From assembly GCA_003695725.1 (NCBI GenBank), contig RFHX01000145.1:1-8416 (forward strand): 8,416 bases of DNA, read 5' to 3'. Shown piece after piece: positions 44-6,968 of this stretch. Source of the stretch: J061 sp003695725 [NCBI: Candidatus Schekmanbacteria bacterium]. GTDB taxonomy: Bacteria; Schekmanbacteria; GWA2-38-11. The notes beneath the pieces are model-generated. The model was not told the DNA's origin, made no database searches, and was given only the letters and a program-made list of their open reading frames with translations. The first letter of the stretch is position 1; the number at the start of each line of letters is the position of its first letter. The position numbers were made by a program, and so were the translations under genes.

Positions 44-858
44 GCTCAATACAGCAAATTACAAATAATTCAAGAGGTGATGAAAATGTAAAAATAGATA
101 ACAATGATAATATTGTATGGTTAATCAGAGATGGCACAGATTCTGAAGTTATGCTTTACAACGGAGGAACAACTACACAAATTACGAATAATACTACCGA
201 TGATGAATTTGCTGAGTTGAATAATGGCAAAATTGTTTGGCGAGGTTATAACTCTGTTAGCGGCAATACTGATATCTATCTCTATGATAGTGGAGTGATT
301 GATCAAATTACAAGCAACTCTTACAATGACGATTATCCTCAAATAAATTCGAATGGCCAAATTGTTTGGGTAGCAAATGATGCACCTTCAAGCTATCAGA
401 TATATTTTTACGATGGAATGACTATTCAAAATATTTCGAACAATTCATTGAATAACTCTTCTCCTCAAATAAACGATTCAGGAGAAATTGTTTGGTCAGC
501 TAATGATGAGATTTTTTACTATGATGGGAGTGCTACATTACAGCTTACAAATAACACATTTATAGATAGTACGCCTTTGATAGATTCACAAGGAAATATT
601 GTTTGGGGTGGATTCGATGGTAATGATTGGGAGATTTACTACTTTGATGGCATATCAATTGAGCAGCTTACTGATAATATCTATGACGATTTGAATTATT
701 CGATTTCTCCTTCAGGAAATATTGTTTGGCAGTCATTTGATGGCAACGATGATGAGATTTTTCTTGCCCTGAAGAATGCGCCTGTCCCTGAACCATCGAC
801 ATTATTTCTTCTTGGCGCAGGATTTGTCCTTTTTACATTTTGTGGAAGGAAAAAATAA
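1..858 (+). CDS. PEP-CTERM anchored IVW-repeat (beta-propeller-like) protein, 5' end missing
   Basis: The frame is open from the first base of the window, so the start and any signal peptide lie outside; 285 residues are visible. The protein is built from six complete repeats of about 40-47 residues, plus a partial one at the window edge. Each repeat has a core like N-G-x-IVW, then often DG(N/S)DxEIxxYDG, then QLT(D/N)N and a short acidic turn. This resembles TolB/WD-type beta-propeller blades, which is inference from the repeat pattern. The C-terminus (visible residues 262-285) is a PEP-CTERM signal: VPEPST, a hydrophobic segment LFLLGAGFVLFTF, then the basic end GRKK. In known systems an exosortase recognises this signal at the inner membrane and the protein is exported to the surface or extracellular matrix. 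The gene lies 39 bp upstream of a paralogue on the same strand and is probably cotranscribed with it. Its substrate or function is unknown. Confidence 0.9.
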   Translation, partial: GYDGSDYEIFFYDGSSIQQITNNSRGDENVKIDNNDNIVWLIRDGTDSEVMLYNGGTTTQITNNTTDDEFAELNNGKIVWRGYNSVSGNTDIYLYDSGVIDQITSNSYNDDYPQINSNGQIVWVANDAPSSYQIYFYDGMTIQNISNNSLNNSSPQINDSGEIVWSANDEIFYYDGSATLQLTNNTFIDSTPLIDSQGNIVWGGFDGNDWEIYYFDGISIEQLTDNIYDDLNYSISPSGNIVWQSFDGNDDEIFLALKNAPVPEPSTLFLLGAGFVLFTFCGRKK

Positions 859-897
859 CATAGCATATTAGCTCATTAGAAATTGAGGAGAAAAAAG

Positions 898-2109
898 ATG
901 AAGAAAAAGGTTATGTGGACCATAATATTGCCATTTCTACTCATTTTGATATTTGGATCTTATTCATATGCAGTGCAATTTTCAACAAAAGTATTGGATC
1001 AGGTTTATGCCGCTGATTTTCTCAAAATCAATGAAACTGGAATGGCGGTATGGGAAAGTGAGGATGACCGCGAAGATATTTTCCTTTATGATAACAGCAG
1101 GGACCAGATAATAAAACTTAAAGCAGGATTCAATACAAGTGACAAAGCCCCCGATATAAATAAATTTGGAGATGTAGTTTGGGCTGACACTGATCCTGTA
1201 TCAGATGGAGGAGGAATTTATTTTTATAATTACAGCGACGGCACAATCTCATCAATTGGAGGTTCAGGTTTCTATGACGCTTGGTATCCACAAATAAATT
1301 CTCAAAGGAATATAGTGTGGCAGGGATATGACGGTTCAGATTATGAGATATTCTTCTATGATGGAATGAATATCATACAGCTTACAAATAACAGCTATGA
1401 CGATCTATATCCTCAAATAAATGATCAAAATTCTATTTTGTGGCAAGGTTCAGACGGAACTGATTTTGAAATTTTTCTATATAAAGATTCTTTTACAACA
1501 CAACTTACAGATAACAGTTTTGATGATACATCGGCAGTAATGAACGAAAATGGTGCTGCTGCGTGGATGGGTTTTGATGGAAATGACAATGAAATCTTTT
1601 ACTATGACGGTTTAAATGTAACTCAATTGACTGATAATTTATTGGTTGATGAGTCACCTGTCATTAATAATCAGGGGAGTGTAGTTTGGTTTGAGGGAGG
1701 TGATTCAATCACAACTTTTGATGATTTGGAAGTTTGTCTTTATGATGGATTAACCATAAATCAGATAACAGATGACAATGATTATGATGATTTTTCCCCT
1801 TACATAAATGATAACGGAGAAATAGTATGGACTTCTCAGCAGAGGAATTTTCCATATTATTCTGATATTTATTATTCTGATGGAACGATGATTCAGCAGA
1901 TTTCAACCATTTATAACAATAATTCATTTCCAGCCATAAGCAATTCGGGCAATGTCGTATGGTTTTCCACTGACCAATACGGTAATCAATATGTAAATTA
2001 TGCTGAAAAGATTTCAGAGCCTGTTCCTGAGCCTTCTTCTTTATTTCTTATGGGGGGAGGTTTTTTACTCATTATTTCTTTACGGCTGAATAGAAAAAGG
2101 AAATATTGA
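898..2109 (+). CDS. PEP-CTERM anchored IVW-repeat (beta-propeller-like) protein, complete
   Basis: This is a 403-residue paralogue of the gene just upstream. The ATG at 898 is preferred because GAGGAG lies at 885-890 with 7-nt spacing. A TTG at 883 in the same frame would overlap that ribosome-binding site. An N-terminal signal peptide is clear: MKKK, a hydrophobic stretch to about residue 18, and probable cleavage after SYSYA. Eight repeats follow with VVW/IVW/ILW cores and YDG-x-x-x-x-QLT(D/N)N segments, a number compatible with a beta-propeller. The C-terminus carries PEP at residues 377-379, a hydrophobic segment (about 382-395) and a basic tail (RLNRKRKY). It is therefore expected to be exported by Sec and processed by an exosortase/archaeosortase-type enzyme, which is not encoded here. 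Asp and Asn are very abundant in the repeat turns, which could suit calcium binding or solvent exposure (inference). Its specific role is unknown; a surface or matrix protein is the safest description. Confidence 0.92.
   Translation: MKKKVMWTIILPFLLILIFGSYSYAVQFSTKVLDQVYAADFLKINETGMAVWESEDDREDIFLYDNSRDQIIKLKAGFNTSDKAPDINKFGDVVWADTDPVSDGGGIYFYNYSDGTISSIGGSGFYDAWYPQINSQRNIVWQGYDGSDYEIFFYDGMNIIQLTNNSYDDLYPQINDQNSILWQGSDGTDFEIFLYKDSFTTQLTDNSFDDTSAVMNENGAAAWMGFDGNDNEIFYYDGLNVTQLTDNLLVDESPVINNQGSVVWFEGGDSITTFDDLEVCLYDGLTINQITDDNDYDDFSPYINDNGEIVWTSQQRNFPYYSDIYYSDGTMIQQISTIYNNNSFPAISNSGNVVWFSTDQYGNQYVNYAEKISEPVPEPSSLFLMGGGFLLIISLRLNRKRKY
1324..1366 (+). repeat. 43-bp exact repeat, copy 2 (in second PEP-CTERM gene)
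   Basis: This is identical to bases 1-43 and lies in the third blade-like repeat of the second paralogue (residues 143-156). A shorter 16-bp match also links the genes: CAGCTTACAAATAACA at 541-556 and 1378-1393. This suggests fairly recent duplication or gene conversion. Confidence 0.9.
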
Positions 2110-2128: not shown

Positions 2129-2842
2129 TTATTTGGAAAGATTGCCATAGTTACGGTATTTTTCCGCAACTATTGGTAGGTTGGAGATTATTGCTTTGAG
2201 TGCTTCATAGGGAAAGCTTAGAGTGATTTCCTCATCTGATATGCCGGTATATTTCCTCCAAGCAACATCGCTATATGAAAAAGCGGGTTTGCCCGTAACA
2301 TAGGGATATTGAATATTAAAGGTGCATCCTCCATTTCCTCCGAATCCTTTTATGAGATTGCCTGTCGTATAAACATATGTGCGTGAAAGAATATCTGCTT
2401 TTTTTGGAGTACAGAAAATCAACAAAATGTCAGGGCTTGAAATTTCAGGAAAAAGTCCGAGCTGAATAGCTGCATTCTTCTTTGCCGGATAGGGTATTTC
2501 CTTTTCCACTTCATCATAATAAGACATTGCAGTTTCAATGTCCTTATATGAGCCTTCCATATCCATATGTAGTTTAATCATCTCCTTCTTTTCTTCTCTT
2601 GTCATCGATTCGGCTACACCTGCCGCAACTACACCTCCTGTGCAGAAACATTGGTCTTTTATGGTATAGAAGGTTTCTTCTCGCTCTAAAATCTCCTTAA
2701 TCTGTGTGCAAAGTCCGGGAAATGCTCTCTCTTCATATTTTTTGATGCCTTCCGGTTCTTTTTTTGAAAACTTGAGAGCAACAATCCTTTTTGCAAGAGA
2801 AAGTTCATCTTTCAATATCTTCCATATCTCGTTATCTTTCAA
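2129..2842 (-). CDS. DUF169 family protein
   Basis: The product has 237 residues. The start is TTG (complement of 2840-2842), strongly supported by AAAAGGAG on the minus strand 7 nt upstream; the next in-frame ATG codons are far inside. Features I associate with DUF169 (COG2043) are an early VALKF segment (residues 21-25), a Cys in the FPGLC segment (Cys45), a CxC followed by TGG (Cys65, Cys67), then SPDILLIFCTP (136-146). The second half carries GGNGGCTF (168-175, with Cys173), the TGKPAFSYSD segment (183-192) and RKYTGISDEEI (196-206). The conserved cysteines suggest metal or Fe-S binding, but the family has no established reaction that I know of. No signal peptide or membrane segment is visible, so it is probably cytoplasmic. 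It converges on the PEP-CTERM gene with only 19 bp between stop codons, and it diverges from the bilin-reductase-like gene, with which it may share regulation. Confidence 0.82.
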   Translation of the reverse strand: MKDNEIWKILKDELSLAKRIVALKFSKKEPEGIKKYEERAFPGLCTQIKEILEREETFYTIKDQCFCTGGVVAAGVAESMTREEKKEMIKLHMDMEGSYKDIETAMSYYDEVEKEIPYPAKKNAAIQLGLFPEISSPDILLIFCTPKKADILSRTYVYTTGNLIKGFGGNGGCTFNIQYPYVTGKPAFSYSDVAWRKYTGISDEEITLSFPYEALKAIISNLPIVAEKYRNYGNLSK

Positions 2843-2858
2843 AGCAATTCTCCTTTTA

Positions 2859-2950
2859 AATTATTGTGCAGTGAGATTGAAGGCAAATTATGGAATTTTT
2901 TTTACAGATTTGATATTCATTGTCCAGAAATTAATGAATTCACAATAAAT
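2859..2950. repeat. Inverted repeat spanning the divergent DUF169 / FDBR-like intergenic region
   Basis: AATTATTGTG (2859-2868) and CACAATAAAT (2941-2950) form an inverted repeat matching at 9 of 10 positions, with 72 bp between the arms. One arm lies just outside the DUF169 ribosome-binding site and the other just before the start region of the rightward gene, so the arrangement is nearly symmetrical about the shared intergenic region. It could be a pair of operator half-sites for one regulator. In such AT-rich DNA chance is a real alternative. I see no convincing -35/-10 pair for either gene. Confidence 0.35.
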
Positions 2951-2961
2951 GGGGTTGAATT

Positions 2962-3666
2962 TTGGAAGATTTGAAGAAATCCTTCATAAAGGAAGCGGAG
3001 AAGTCCTTTGCAGAAATCTGCAAGAAAGCAGTTGATATAGGAAAATCCTTTGAAGAGATAAAAAATGGAAAAGGCGAAATATCTTTGAAGGTCTATAAAG
3101 GTGATAAAGTTGAAAAGGTGATTTTTTCTTCAATAAAAATTTTCGAGCTCGCTGTAGTAGAAGAATCTTTTATGGTTTGGCCAACTGATGAATACAATTT
3201 TCCTGTCTTATGGTGCAATCTGACAAGTATGTCCGGAATGAATATAGCAATTTGCGATTATATGCCGTTGGCTGATTTGACAATTTGGAGCGACTATATT
3301 TCAAAATATTTTGAGGGATTTCAAAGAATTAAAAGAGAAGTTATGAAAGAGCTAAAAAATGGGATTGAAGAAGAACTTAATGAAATTTCATCAATAGTAA
3401 TTTGCGCGCTGTCGCCATATAGAATCATCTTGAATCTGAAGGATGAAGGTGTCGATAGATTTATTTTTCAGCTAAAAAAATTCTATTCTGATTACCTGTC
3501 ACTTATAAACTCTTCAAAGAATATCGATGGCGATGATAAGGATTTCAGCATAAGAAAAAAAGAAGCACTCAAAAAATTAATGAAACAAAATGACCCCGGT
3601 TATCCAATTATGGCAAATGCATTTGGAAATGAGCTTACTGATAAGGTTTTCGATATAATCTTTTAG
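2962..3666 (+). CDS. Distant ferredoxin-dependent bilin reductase (PcyA/HY2 superfamily)-like protein
   Basis: The product has 234 residues, close to the usual 230-260 of bacterial FDBRs. Those enzymes reduce biliverdin IXalpha to phytobilins using reduced ferredoxin. From memory of the Synechocystis PcyA sequence, three blocks align without forcing. First, residues 74-88 (P-x-x-x-Y-x-x-P-V-L-W-C-N-L-T) align with PcyA 93-107 (P-x-x-x-Y-x-x-P-L-F-G-C-D-I-V), followed by AICDYMP against AIADLSP. Second, SPYRIIL (151-157) aligns with SEYCLFI. Third, ND at 210-211 and AFG at 220-222 align with PcyA ND 219-220 and AFG 229-231 at the same spacing, and both end in a short helix closing on F. Key positions: PcyA Glu76 is kept (Glu62) and Asp220 is kept (Asp211), but Asp105 is Asn86, His88 is Ser69 and His74 is Ile60. 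The start is TTG with a weak GGGG 7 nt upstream; an in-frame stop at 2956 excludes a longer protein, and TTG at 2971 is the alternative. No heme oxygenase gene is in the window. Function is inferred only at superfamily level; a red chlorophyll catabolite reductase-like or unknown activity is possible. Confidence 0.7.
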   Translation: MEDLKKSFIKEAEKSFAEICKKAVDIGKSFEEIKNGKGEISLKVYKGDKVEKVIFSSIKIFELAVVEESFMVWPTDEYNFPVLWCNLTSMSGMNIAICDYMPLADLTIWSDYISKYFEGFQRIKREVMKELKNGIEEELNEISSIVICALSPYRIILNLKDEGVDRFIFQLKKFYSDYLSLINSSKNIDGDDKDFSIRKKEALKKLMKQNDPGYPIMANAFGNELTDKVFDIIF

Positions 3667-3729: not shown

Positions 3730-5454
3730 TTAATATACTCTTTTCTTAGGTTGAAATTTAGTGATGCTCACTTCCTTGTAATCAAAACGGATATTTTCGC
3801 CATCCTTGTAGGCAAGAGTATGCTTTAACCAGTTAGCATCGTCTCTTTCAGGATAATCTTCCCTGAAATGAGCTCCTCTGCTTTCAGTCCTGTTTAGCGC
3901 ACCTGCTGCTATCACTTGAGAATAATCCAACATATTACCAAGCTCGATGGCTTCGATAAGTTCTGTATTGTATTTTTCGCTTTTGTCAGTAATAGAGATC
4001 TGTTGGTATCTTTCCTTCAAAGTCTTAAGATGTTCATTGAGCTCCTTTAAGCCCTTTTCTTCTCTAAATACTGAGCATTTATCCATCATCTCTTCCTGCA
4101 AACTGGCTCTTATTTCGTGAACCTTTTCTTCCCCATTGCTGTTTTTTATCTTTTCGATTTTTTCCCGCGCGCCTGCATCTGCATCCTTTGGAAGGGGTTC
4201 AAAATCTGCATTTGGCAGAAAATCGAGAATGGCTTTTCCTGCCCGCCTTCCAAAGACTATTGTATCGAGAAGTGAATTTGTCCCTAAACGATTTGCCCCG
4301 TGGACTGATACACAGGCACATTCACCGGCGGCAAAGAATCCGGGTATGGTCGTCTTATCTTTACCTAAAAGTATTTTTCCGTCAACATCTGTTGGTATTC
4401 CGCCCATTTGATAGTGGGTAGTTGGTTTTACAGGAATTGGCTGTTCGGCAGGGTCTATTCCTAAGTATGTCCTTGATAATTCACTTATTTCTGACAATTT
4501 TCTTTCGATTTCAGCTTTACCAAGATGTCTGATGTCCAGATGCACATAATCTTGTCCATTTATACCACGTCCTTCTCTTATTTCAGTATATATAGACCTT
4601 GAAACAACATCGCGAGAAGCAAGCTCTTTTACAGTAGGGGCATATTTCTCCATAAATCTTTCCCCTTTATCGTTGTAGAGAATGCCGCCTTCTCCTCTTA
4701 CTGCTTCGCTTATCAAGATTCCAAGTTTATGAATCCCTGTTGGATGAAACTGCACAAATTCAAGGTCTTGAAGAGGTATCCCATGGTTATAGGCAATAGT
4801 AAGCCCATCGCCGGTGCAGGAATAAGCATTTGTGGTGGTTTTGAATGCTTTCCCATATCCCCCTGTAGCAAACAGCACGGCTTTTGCATGAAATGTTATT
4901 ATTTCTCCGCTTCTCATATCCATTGCTACTATTCCGCAACAGATTCCGTTTTTGATTATGAGGTCGAGCATAAAAAATTCAGAATAAAATTTAACTCTGT
5001 GTTTTATACATTGTTCATATAGGGTGTGTAGCATAACATGACCTGTGCGGTCAGCTGCATAACATGCTCTTTTAACTGGTGCTTCTCCGTAGTTTTTTGT
5101 ATGTCCTCCCATAGGCCTTTGGGCAAGCTTTCCATCTTTTGTCCTGCTGAAAGGGACTCCCATATGTTCAAGCTCATACATTGCCCGCGGCGCATCATTG
5201 GTCATTATTTCGATGGCATCTTGGTCTCCAAGATAGTCGCTTCCTTTTGTTGTATCAAAGGCATGCCATTCAGGATAATCTTCTTCTTCATTTGCAAGGG
5301 CTGCGCCAATTCCTCCTTGTGCCGCAGATGAGTGGGAACGCGTTGGGAAAACTTTTGTAACAACGGCAACATCAGTTTTGCCGGCAAGCTCAACTGCCGC
5401 TCTTGAACCAGCCAACCCTGCACCTACAATAATAACATCGTGTTGAATTATCAT
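3730..5454 (-). CDS. sdhA: Succinate dehydrogenase / fumarate reductase flavoprotein subunit
   Basis: This 574-residue protein is full length for the family and catalyses succinate-fumarate interconversion on the cytoplasmic face of the membrane complex. The N-terminus has the dinucleotide-binding GAGLAG (residues 11-16). SHSSAAQGG (40-48) carries His41, the expected site of covalent FAD attachment. Active-site signatures follow in order: QFHPTGI, SEAVRGEGG, the arginine of RDVVSRS, THYQMGG, and HGANRLGTNSLLD. The C-terminal helical domain ends with ESRGAHFREDYPERDD and a short TKFQPKKRVY tail, typical of SdhA rather than of L-aspartate oxidase (NadB), the main alternative. The ATG start is supported by AAAGGAG on the minus strand with 6-nt spacing. 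It usually works with an Fe-S subunit (SdhB) and membrane anchors, but none is adjacent: downstream is the convergent bilin-reductase-like gene and upstream a 308-bp region with a divergent operon. It is therefore a monocistronic, orphan sdhA, and partners must be elsewhere. Confidence 0.95.
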   Translation of the reverse strand: MIIQHDVIIVGAGLAGSRAAVELAGKTDVAVVTKVFPTRSHSSAAQGGIGAALANEEEDYPEWHAFDTTKGSDYLGDQDAIEIMTNDAPRAMYELEHMGVPFSRTKDGKLAQRPMGGHTKNYGEAPVKRACYAADRTGHVMLHTLYEQCIKHRVKFYSEFFMLDLIIKNGICCGIVAMDMRSGEIITFHAKAVLFATGGYGKAFKTTTNAYSCTGDGLTIAYNHGIPLQDLEFVQFHPTGIHKLGILISEAVRGEGGILYNDKGERFMEKYAPTVKELASRDVVSRSIYTEIREGRGINGQDYVHLDIRHLGKAEIERKLSEISELSRTYLGIDPAEQPIPVKPTTHYQMGGIPTDVDGKILLGKDKTTIPGFFAAGECACVSVHGANRLGTNSLLDTIVFGRRAGKAILDFLPNADFEPLPKDADAGAREKIEKIKNSNGEEKVHEIRASLQEEMMDKCSVFREEKGLKELNEHLKTLKERYQQISITDKSEKYNTELIEAIELGNMLDYSQVIAAGALNRTESRGAHFREDYPERDDANWLKHTLAYKDGENIRFDYKEVSITKFQPKKRVY

Positions 5455-5762: not shown

Positions 5763-6968
5763 ATGGAGCATTATGATTTGTTAGGACTTGAATTAGGATT
5801 AAACGATTCAGGCCTTGTGGAAGGAAAGGTTACAGGATTTCTTGCAAACGAATTGTCAGGTTTTTTTGACCTTTATTTGATGAAATTGAATACAAATAAA
5901 GTTCTTGCTGTGAAAAGAGGCGGGAATGTTTATACCTGTTTTTTGCCTCCTCTACCAAGCAAAGCAGGGGTAAAGGATTTAACGAGAAAGCTTTTGAGAA
6001 AATTTTTGAATTTTCGCATTCCCTCCACATGCACATTAAGTACGACTTATGCCTGTCAGGCAAAGTGTGTACATTGCAGTGCTGACAAGAATATGAAAAA
6101 GAGAGGCAGAGAGTTGACGACTGAAGAATTTAAAAATGTCCTTGATCAGGCCATTGAGCTCGGTGTTGTGAATATTACCTTGACAGGAGGTGAGCCCCTT
6201 TTAAGAAAAGACATATTTGAATTGATTAAACATGTAAATCCAGATGACGCAAACTGTATGATGTTTTCGAATGGAGAATATTTAACTGAAGAAAACTGCG
6301 CTAAACTTGCCGAAGCCGGACTTTTTTCTGTTATGGTAAGCATAGATAGCCCTGACCCTGAAATTCACGACAAATACCGGGGAGTCAAAGGGCTTTTCGA
6401 TAAAGCCATAAAGGGAATTGAAAGAGCAAAGAAAGCCGGCATCTTGGTTGGTATTTCGACATATGCAACAAGAGAAGATTACAAGGATGGAAGTCTTGAA
6501 AGAATTTTAGAGCTTGGAAAGGAAATAGGAGTTCATGAAGTAGTTGTTTTTGACCCCGTGCCAACAGGCAAATTGATAGATAATATGGATATGATATTGA
6601 GTATGGAAGAAAAGGAAGAGATAGCAAAACTGACAAATGAATATCGTATGCGTCCCGATTATCCGGGTGTAATAACACAGTCTTGGATAAATGGACCAAA
6701 GGGCTCCGGCTGTTTTGCCGGGAATGAACAGTTCTATATGACTGCATATGGAGATATTTGTCCCTGTGATTTTACACCATTGAGCTTTGGAAATATTAAG
6801 GATGAAAGCCTTGCAACAATATGGAATAGAATTCTTGACCATCCAGCTTATCGGGAAAAATGCAATCATTGCCGTATGCAGGATAAGGAATTCCGCGCAA
6901 AATATATCGATACTATTCCTGAAAATGTGCCTTTCCCTTATGAGATATTTAAAGAAAATCAGGTTTGA
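5763..6968 (+). CDS. Radical SAM protein with SPASM/twitch-like C-terminal domain, function unknown
   Basis: The product has 401 residues. The ATG start is preceded by AAGGAAGGA, 7 nt away. The radical SAM core begins with CxxxCxxC at Cys98, Cys102 and Cys105, which binds the 4Fe-4S cluster that cleaves S-adenosylmethionine. TGGEP at 141-145 contacts SAM. The C-terminus has a second cysteine set: GC-x-AG with Cys317, GDICPC with Cys333 and Cys335, FGNI plus a SLATIW helix, then CNHC with Cys367 and Cys370. This is the layout of an auxiliary Fe-S domain of SPASM/twitch type. Only five cysteines are visible, fewer than the seven of a full SPASM domain, so one auxiliary cluster is likely. Residues 1-90 form an N-terminal extension I cannot assign. 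Relatives act in peptide and cofactor maturation (PqqE, anaerobic sulfatase maturase, heme enzymes such as NirJ/AhbC), but no peptide substrate is evident here. It is the first gene of a likely operon with apt, 21 bp away. Confidence 0.88.
   Translation: MEHYDLLGLELGLNDSGLVEGKVTGFLANELSGFFDLYLMKLNTNKVLAVKRGGNVYTCFLPPLPSKAGVKDLTRKLLRKFLNFRIPSTCTLSTTYACQAKCVHCSADKNMKKRGRELTTEEFKNVLDQAIELGVVNITLTGGEPLLRKDIFELIKHVNPDDANCMMFSNGEYLTEENCAKLAEAGLFSVMVSIDSPDPEIHDKYRGVKGLFDKAIKGIERAKKAGILVGISTYATREDYKDGSLERILELGKEIGVHEVVVFDPVPTGKLIDNMDMILSMEEKEEIAKLTNEYRMRPDYPGVITQSWINGPKGSGCFAGNEQFYMTAYGDICPCDFTPLSFGNIKDESLATIWNRILDHPAYREKCNHCRMQDKEFRAKYIDTIPENVPFPYEIFKENQV

Follow-up and report, generated by a model that had tools for sequence, protein, structure and literature searches.

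Twelve different FDBR-like genes, relatives of the pigment-reducing ferredoxin-dependent bilin reductases (FDBRs) of plants and cyanobacteria, are found in a single genome of a little-known bacterium (Candidatus Schekmanbacteria), and this is the main finding, which reaches beyond the window, that is, the whole stretch of 8,416 nucleotides that was analysed. The window carries one of these genes, which taken alone is of smaller interest, being one divergent member of the family with an Asp-to-Asn replacement that has a precedent. The genome in question (G000; 2.77 Mb, 374 contigs, completeness 97.84, contamination 1.19) possesses 12 places exceeding the PF05996 cut-off; together with three relatives from the same order of Ca. 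Schekmanbacteria, GWA2_38_11 (G001-G003), the counts of FDBR-like genes are 12, 8, 3 and 3, where two of the 26 fell under the cut-off in that search. Outside the order one FDBR-like match was found in 1 of 56 genomes (60 were searched, including G000). When the 26 proteins were scanned one at a time, every one of them matched PF05996 (E <= 0.01), and five also matched PF06405 (best E 1.3e-4); the PF06405 scores of the six proteins examined were all below the cut-off. In the cyanobacterial phylum (that of genome G049) 51 of 117 genomes showed a match, none of them with more than four rows. Weak FDBR matches were also seen in this phylum at L145:1821-2528 on the minus strand (G069; 64 bits) and at L146 (G094; 33 bits), both of which are possibly pre-PcyA-like.

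A scan of an 84,980-species collection returned 43 stretches and two confirmed loci, both from the MAG Ca. Schekmanbacteria bacterium GWA2_38_11, with proteins equal to those at G003:C34 and G003:C55; the patterns were drawn from 9 of the 26 members and the window genome's own records were possibly omitted, so the scan shows no absence elsewhere. Searches of the open-access literature, with subscription papers and supplements outside their scope, showed no paper on what these proteins do or in how many copies they occur.

The window gene begins with TTG, and its product matches PF05996 (Fe_bilin_red) with 36 bits against a cut-off of 31 (E 7.7e-9). PF06405 (RCC_reductase) reached 16.1 bits, below its cut-off of 24.9, and PF01218 (HemF/CPO) was not among the Pfam families matched at E <= 1. 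NCBIfam gave a weak match to PebB alone (30 bits of 303). With phmmer the best match in the PDB was tomato phytochromobilin synthase HY2 (E 1.2e-5), followed by GtPEBB (E 9.8e-4) and then by 14-3-3 proteins at E >= 0.013. No viral relatives were found for this protein or for the neighbouring DUF169 protein, a plasmid search returned no match, and an Rfam scan gave 0 matches.

A full-length orthologue, L039, is found on contig C2 of G001 and shares 46% identity over 229 amino acid residues. Comparison of the two genes reveals a pN of 0.385 against a pS of 0.782 (dS is saturated); the window gene is therefore a maintained one. It belongs to the least conserved of six G000/G001 orthologue pairs, which span 46-74% identity, the other five lying at 65-74%. 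Identity is concentrated in the strands and the Asp211 loop (47 of 73 residues, compared with 58 of 160 in the remainder; Fisher p 7e-5), these segments having been picked post hoc from the alignment itself. The encoded protein can be counted as a divergent, conserved member of the Schekmanbacteria FDBR-like family.

The fold of the protein was modeled using AlphaFold2 from an alignment of 11 rows, comprising the window protein, two Schekmanbacteria sequences and eight viral FDBRs. The model has a pLDDT of 74.9 and a pTM of 0.76, with residues 124-150 under pLDDT 50. VIA-align gave Z scores of 23.0 to PcyA, 23.0 to GtPEBB, 21.8 to PebA, 21.0 to HY2, 20.5 to RCCR, 19.1 to PebS, 17.6 to PcyX and up to 17.5 to CPO/HemF, the next other fold scoring 5.3. 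The predicted structure is that of the alpha/beta/alpha sandwich of the FDBR/RCCR superfamily. Because FDBRs were part of the model alignment, the fold does not count as evidence separate from the sequence; the sequence evidence stands without the model, and a profile of the 26 family members (A2) finds the FDBRs of the PDB at E 1.3e-34 and RCCR at 1.9e-9. The preliminary description had called the open reading frame a relative of the bilin reductases; profile, phmmer match, fold and family profile all uphold this. The sandwich was present in the model, and no other family gave a better score.

Residues were matched using an alignment of 62 rows, for which Synechocystis PcyA served as the anchor. 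Positions 74, 76, 88, 105, 216 and 220 of PcyA fall on Ile54, Ser56, Ser69, Asn86, Met207 and Asp211 of the window protein, in which the central Asp pair (105 and 220) is incomplete, Asn86 standing with Asp211. The equivalences proposed beforehand for Asp105, His88 and Asp220 are borne out. Two others were misaligned: Glu62 had been taken for a kept Glu76, which falls on Ser56 and hence is not kept, and Ile60 for the match of His74, which falls on Ile54. Nor is the spacing nearly constant as had been stated, since in the pairs given the offset changes by 5 residues from position 76 to 88, and by 10 from 105 to 220. Glu76 is described as specific to PcyA (PMC10151467).

Asn at position 105 had been read as a possible sign of new function. 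It is not one in itself, because vascular-plant HY2 carries the same residue; it is reported to be the only FDBR with this Asn, where Asp-116 substitutes for the role (PMC6755814). In the HY2 row of the alignment (6kmd) position 88 is Asp and position 105 Asn. The replacement as a unique trait was rejected on the same precedent. In PcyA and GtPEBB the D105N exchange or its equivalent is reported to abolish activity, or nearly so (PMC6755814, PMC9800206). In RCCR the two positions are occupied by Ser (88) and Glu (105). Glu67 of the window protein sits at the position of PcyA Ile86, a residue located near Glu76 and Asp105 in the PcyA structure (PMC9800206); Glu occurs here in the window protein and L039 alone (0 of 24 other Schekmanbacteria rows), and both Glu67 and Asp211 are identical in L039. 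By analogy, it is possible that the acid was relocated from position 105 to Glu67, which is to be taken as an idea and not as a result, because in PcyA the I86D exchange is reported to disrupt the proton relay even though Asp105 is in place (PMC9800206).

At the position of Asp105 the 26 paralogues possess Asp (11), Glu (7), Asn (6) or Tyr (2), and within G000 alone the same four residues occur 4, 3, 4 and 1 times, respectively. Glu, the RCCR state, is thus present in seven paralogues, the window protein not among them. Nine of the 26 (L009, L010, L011 and L029-L034) have Asp at both 105 and 220, close to PebA/PebB, and carry Asn at position 88, except for Thr in L033 and L034. In 11 rows, that of the window protein included, the loop that follows the DxxP motif is longer and contains a DY/DF...Y element, which is largely common to RCCR and HY2.

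Phylogenetic analysis using IQ-TREE was based on 61 rows, with L146, a fragment in a 144-aa frame, left out and with no named pre-PcyA row; the weak cyanobacterial-phylum row L145, which was included, may be a pre-PcyA. The window protein and L039 form a pair (100/100) that groups with RCCR and with nine further rows from Schekmanbacteria (94/94). The window protein lies outside the clade of PcyA/X (99/97) and also outside the group made up of PebA/PebB/HY2 (93/83), which agrees with the early-branching position suggested in the preliminary description. The Schekmanbacteria rows need three changes on this tree. The AU test rejects neither a single clade of all 26 (p-AU 0.234) nor one that unites the 11 long-loop rows to the exclusion of RCCR (p-AU 0.524). 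The exact place of RCCR is unsure because it is represented by one partial, long row.

The lineage is not new, since Rockwell et al. in 2023 already placed Ca. Schekmanbacteria sequences in the RCCR outgroup (PMC10151467). Those sequences come from the same bacterial group and occupy the same place between FDBRs and RCCRs, so that the likeness is one at group level; the main text of that paper gives neither the number of copies nor the residue series for them, and neither their gene context nor a function. The occurrence of FDBRs outside phototrophs and their phages, which had been considered noteworthy, is likewise already published in the form of pre-PcyA (PMC10151467). The pre-PcyAs resemble the present family in being FDBR relatives of heterotrophic bacteria with altered catalytic residues, and pre-1 is reported to lack Glu76, His88 and Asp105 and yet to form phytochromobilin weakly (PMC10151467); by contrast, they are described as branching with PcyA and as mostly sitting in clusters that contain V4R, Fe-S and globin genes, often together with one for heme oxygenase. 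HY2 (PDB 6kmd/6kme) is the best single-sequence PDB match of the window protein and shares with it Asn at 105, Asp at 220 and the longer loop, whereas it has Asp at 88 and Arg at PcyA position 216 in place of Ser69 and Met207. RCCR (red chlorophyll catabolite reductase; PDB 2zxk) agrees with the window protein in Ser at 88 and Asp at 220 and likewise in the longer loop, the fold and the neighbouring place on the tree, but differs in Glu at 105 instead of Asn86, and its Pfam family stays below cut-off. HemF/CPO, the oxygen-dependent coproporphyrinogen oxidase, has the same fold, although the window protein matches PF05996 and not PF01218.

The features of the window and of the related loci are collected in Table 1. 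The 3′ side of the window also encodes a phosphoribosyltransferase and a lipoprotein-like protein. The radical SAM/SPASM protein reaches about 143-166 of 500 bits for AhbD and 146 of 500 for NirJ2. Pfam matched none of the eight window proteins to a heme oxygenase, phytochrome or phycobilisome family, as had been noted from the letters alone, nor was any V4R, Fe-S protein, globin or heme oxygenase of a pre-PcyA-type cluster found among them; the PEP-CTERM motifs of two proteins agree with the earlier view of a PEP-CTERM bacterium. A scan for promoters and terminators around the window gene was at chance level.

Table 1. Positions of the features discussed; those given without a contig or locus handle refer to the window.
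Feature	Position	Strand	Basis or remark
Two PEP-CTERM proteins, upstream side	151-2109	+	Similar tandem repeats, wording IVW..YDG.D.EI..YDG
DUF169 protein, divergent neighbour	2129-2842	-	Pfam PF02596, 102 bits
Intergenic gap of 119 bases separating the divergent gene pair	2843-2961		Promoter-like matches no more than in shuffles
FDBR/RCCR-superfamily protein, 234 aa	2962-3666	+	Profile, fold (predicted), alignment
Codons of residues 66-86 (model strands 65-74 and 82-90)	3157-3219	+	Glu67, Glu68, Ser69 and Asn86 all identical in L039
Codons of residues 200-216 (loop with Asn210-Asp211-Pro212, PcyA Asp220 region)	3559-3609	+	13 of 17 residues identical in L039
sdhA, convergent to the FDBR-like gene	3730-5454	-	TIGR01816, 842 bits, cut-off 727
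Radical SAM/SPASM protein	5763-6968	+	Nearest AhbD and NirJ2, far below both cut-offs
DUF169 genes near FDBR-like genes, three loci	Window 2129-2842; L027:7494-8165; L044:4201-4869	- (window)	
HemF-like genes, multiple per genome	G000:C71, C97, C23; G001-G003: L096, L098-L105, L108, L109, L005:526-1281		PF01218
HemF-like remnants	G000:C161:8218-8595; G002:C11:199905-200282 and 260952-261320		Stops or truncation

The window gene and its G001 orthologue have no conserved neighbours in common. In G001 the orthologue (L043:7921-8625) shares 4 bases with the 3′-end of an upstream 367-aa open reading frame (L043:6821-7924), an overlap suggestive of coupled translation in G001 but not in the window. 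An sdhA gene adjoins an FDBR-like gene in both genomes (L048:5623-7347 in G001), but the paralogues differ; it is convergent in the window and directly upstream in G001, and the two sdhA products share 72% identity. A DUF169 gene is also located near another FDBR-like gene (G000:C252) and near that gene's G001 orthologue, and contig C6 of G000 carries a DUF169 gene together with one for aldehyde:ferredoxin oxidoreductase (AOR). Nothing useful on DUF169 was found in the literature, and a single-sequence model of the neighbour reached a pLDDT of 35.

Elsewhere in the family some paralogues adjoin redox genes. On G000:C195 (L026:2496-4141) genes for a ferredoxin, an FDBR-like protein and a DUF1847 protein stand in line on the same strand; on C268 an AOR gene precedes the FDBR-like gene; and on C23 a NIR_SIR/Fer4 gene (4Fe-4S, sulfite-reductase-like), an FDBR-like gene and a HemF-like gene follow one another, and G001 keeps the order of the first two. 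On C7 geranylgeranyl-reductase-like FAD proteins are encoded before the FDBR-like gene, whose G001 orthologue is preceded by a member of the geranylgeranyl-reductase-like family and then sdhA. Six of the eight G001 copies are located on one 516-kb contig. All counts of neighbours were made post hoc: DUF169 is found on FDBR-like contigs of G000 in 2 of 7 cases (expected 0.24, p 0.023), AOR on FDBR-like contigs in 1 of 9 (p 0.27) and on FDBR-like or HemF-like contigs in 2 of 9 (p 0.059). The company of the family is weakly above chance, and chance is not well excluded.

Divergent HemF-like genes are likewise multiplied in these genomes. PF01218 identified 4, 7, 4 and 2 places in G000-G003, some of them remnants, and a profile of 12 HemF-like proteins (A3) found 4, 7, 3 and 2 when run on 116 genomes, with a match in 5 of the 112 others. 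This profile was built without a 13th HemF-like protein (G001:C7:463 kb / L048:12518-13441; 307 aa) and without the remnants at G000:C161 and G002:C11, which indicate that the HemF-like family also decays. A cluster of HemF-like, HEAT/4Fe-4S, 4Fe-4S and AOR genes is kept between G000:C71 and G001:C8, with 61-82% identity for the four. Some HemF-like genes adjoin UbiD or AOR genes.

Published accounts describe no significant sequence similarity between FDBR and CPO (PMC13193486, PMC10151467). Alignment of A2 with A3 using hhalign gave a score of 35.0 (E 2.9e-4, probability 40%, 170 columns), with D99-x-x-P102 placed on the DxxP of the HemF-like proteins; the maximum of 60 column shuffles was 18.2 and reversed A3 scored 17.2. 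Canonical FDBRs against A3 reached 21.4, slightly above a shuffle maximum of 18.9, and A3 against canonical HemF 241. Against five canonical HemF proteins the canonical FDBRs scored 17.7, below the maximum of 40 shuffles (19.7), and A2 scored 12.8, below a shuffle maximum of 17.9. When an HMM of A3 was run on 440 neighbourhood proteins plus controls, the best FDBR-like proteins scored 19.3, 14.4 and 14.3 bits, compared with 7.0 for the best unrelated protein once three HemF-like pieces were set aside, and one canonical FDBR (GtPEBB) scored 11.9; the HMM of A2 on the same set gave 13.2 bits for the best HemF-like protein and 5.3 for the best unrelated one. These scores, from small sets and with uncalibrated E-values, are suggestive of FDBR-like and HemF-like sets in Schekmanbacteria that recognise each other at the level of sequence, which the canonical FDBRs and canonical HemF do not. 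Weighing against such a bridge are the hhalign probability of 40%, the score of A2 with canonical HemF, the slight excess over shuffles of canonical FDBRs with A3, and the bits given to GtPEBB.

No canonical heme oxygenase (PF01126, a profile that would miss non-canonical types) was found in the four genomes of the order, where the cyanobacterial control G049 showed two places. HutW/ChuW (TIGR04107) was over cut-off in none of five genomes searched, and neither was AhbD (TIGR04545; cut-off 500), for which G000 reached 475 bits and G003 413; an Ahb heme route is not concluded from these scores. As the usual substrate-making enzyme was not found, the family probably works on some other compound, and the result leans toward the different tetrapyrrole or different reduction proposed in the preliminary description. 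COX1 (PF00115) exceeds its cut-off in all four genomes of the order (in G002 as a 41-bit fragment); a strictly anaerobic life was consequently rejected as a premise, and oxygen use is not excluded.

Judged by fold and residues, the most economical reading is that of a cofactor-free, ferredoxin-fed reductase acting on a tetrapyrrole-like substrate other than heme-oxygenase-made biliverdin; we favor it tentatively. The conjugated substrate, which is probably not biliverdin of that origin, would be bound between the β-sheet and the C-terminal helices and reduced by single electrons from ferredoxin. Protons would come from Asp211, with Glu67 on the neighboring strand possibly serving as a source in place of Asp105; such a moved acid would have its parallel in HY2, where it shifted from 105 to 88. 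The known enzyme families with this fold (FDBR, RCCR and CPO) act on tetrapyrroles (PMC13193486). In favor count the profile and the fold, the absence of PF01126 matches from the four genomes, the nine paralogues with Asp at both 105 and 220, the redox genes beside some paralogues (ferredoxin on C195, AOR on C268, 4Fe-4S on C23), the retention of Glu67 and Asp211 in the orthologue and the higher conservation of the strands and the Asp211 loop. Against it count the lack of Asp105 in this copy, given the effect of D105N on PcyA and GtPEBB, the harm done by I86D in PcyA, the low conservation of the window pair, the gene company that is weakly above chance, and the fact that the window gene lacks a conserved redox neighbor, its G001 orthologue having other ones.

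The paralogues could also be explained if the fold had been recruited into catabolism, each paralogue reducing a different conjugated, non-tetrapyrrole compound with electrons from ferredoxin. Twelve divergent paralogues with differing central residues would suit this, as would the catabolic-looking neighbors (amidohydrolase, geranylgeranyl-reductase-like FAD proteins, AOR and SDR) and the HemF-like genes beside UbiD and AOR; the neighbor enrichment is weak, however, and the known families of the fold keep to tetrapyrroles, so that we regard it as possible though less probable. A true bilin reductase working in the manner of HY2, on biliverdin taken up or made by an unrecognised heme-opening enzyme, would account for Asn at 105, for HY2 as best single PDB match and for the longer loop after DxxP (D-L/I...DY..xYY/F) that HY2 and RCCR also have. 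Yet the replacing Asp at 88 is Ser69 here, Arg215 of PebB/HY2 is Met207, and the searches for PF01126 (0 of 4 genomes) and HutW/ChuW (0 of 5 over cut-off) also speak against this reading, which we regard as improbable.

Equally doubtful is the notion that paralogues without Asp105 are pseudoenzymes, which bind a tetrapyrrole without reducing it or act as scaffolds. Asp105 is lost in 15 of the 26, the window pair evolves fastest, and a PcyA occurs as a subunit in motor complexes of Chlamydomonas (Ycf2/Orf2971-FtsHi; PDB 8xqw, 8xks); but conservation between the orthologues extends to Asp211 and to the strands around Asn86, and HY2 shows that Asn105 is compatible with catalysis. That the similarity is due to chance or to a binning artefact is hardly credible. 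The single-sequence scores are modest (36 bits, with 14-3-3 proteins at E 0.013), but a chance match was rejected on the strength of the PF05996 matches of 26 of 26 members, of a fold Z of 23 versus 5.3 for the next unrelated fold (8 of the 11 model rows being viral FDBRs), and of six orthologue pairs between G000 and G001, the latter with most of its copies on one contig.

A bolder reading is that Schekmanbacteria carry a radiation of the whole FDBR/RCCR/CPO fold superfamily (12 FDBR-like genes plus the HemF-like ones in a 2.8-Mb genome) that would work without heme oxygenase, perhaps without oxygen, and be fed by ferredoxin and AOR; we consider this unlikely. The known FDBR/RCCR/CPO relatives are stated to depend ultimately on oxygen in all cases (PMC10151467). 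If true, the radiation would represent a branch that does without oxygen in a superfamily of which every known member has been described as ultimately oxygen-dependent, and the FDBR-like and HemF-like sets would provide a sequence link between two families that share only a fold. With many such genes and no recognised heme oxygenase, these bacteria make the statements on missing similarity and on oxygen dependence testable by ordinary protein work. The paralogues constitute a natural panel at the central position (Asp, Glu, Asn and Tyr) in one organism, which includes the states known from PebA/PcyA, RCCR and HY2.
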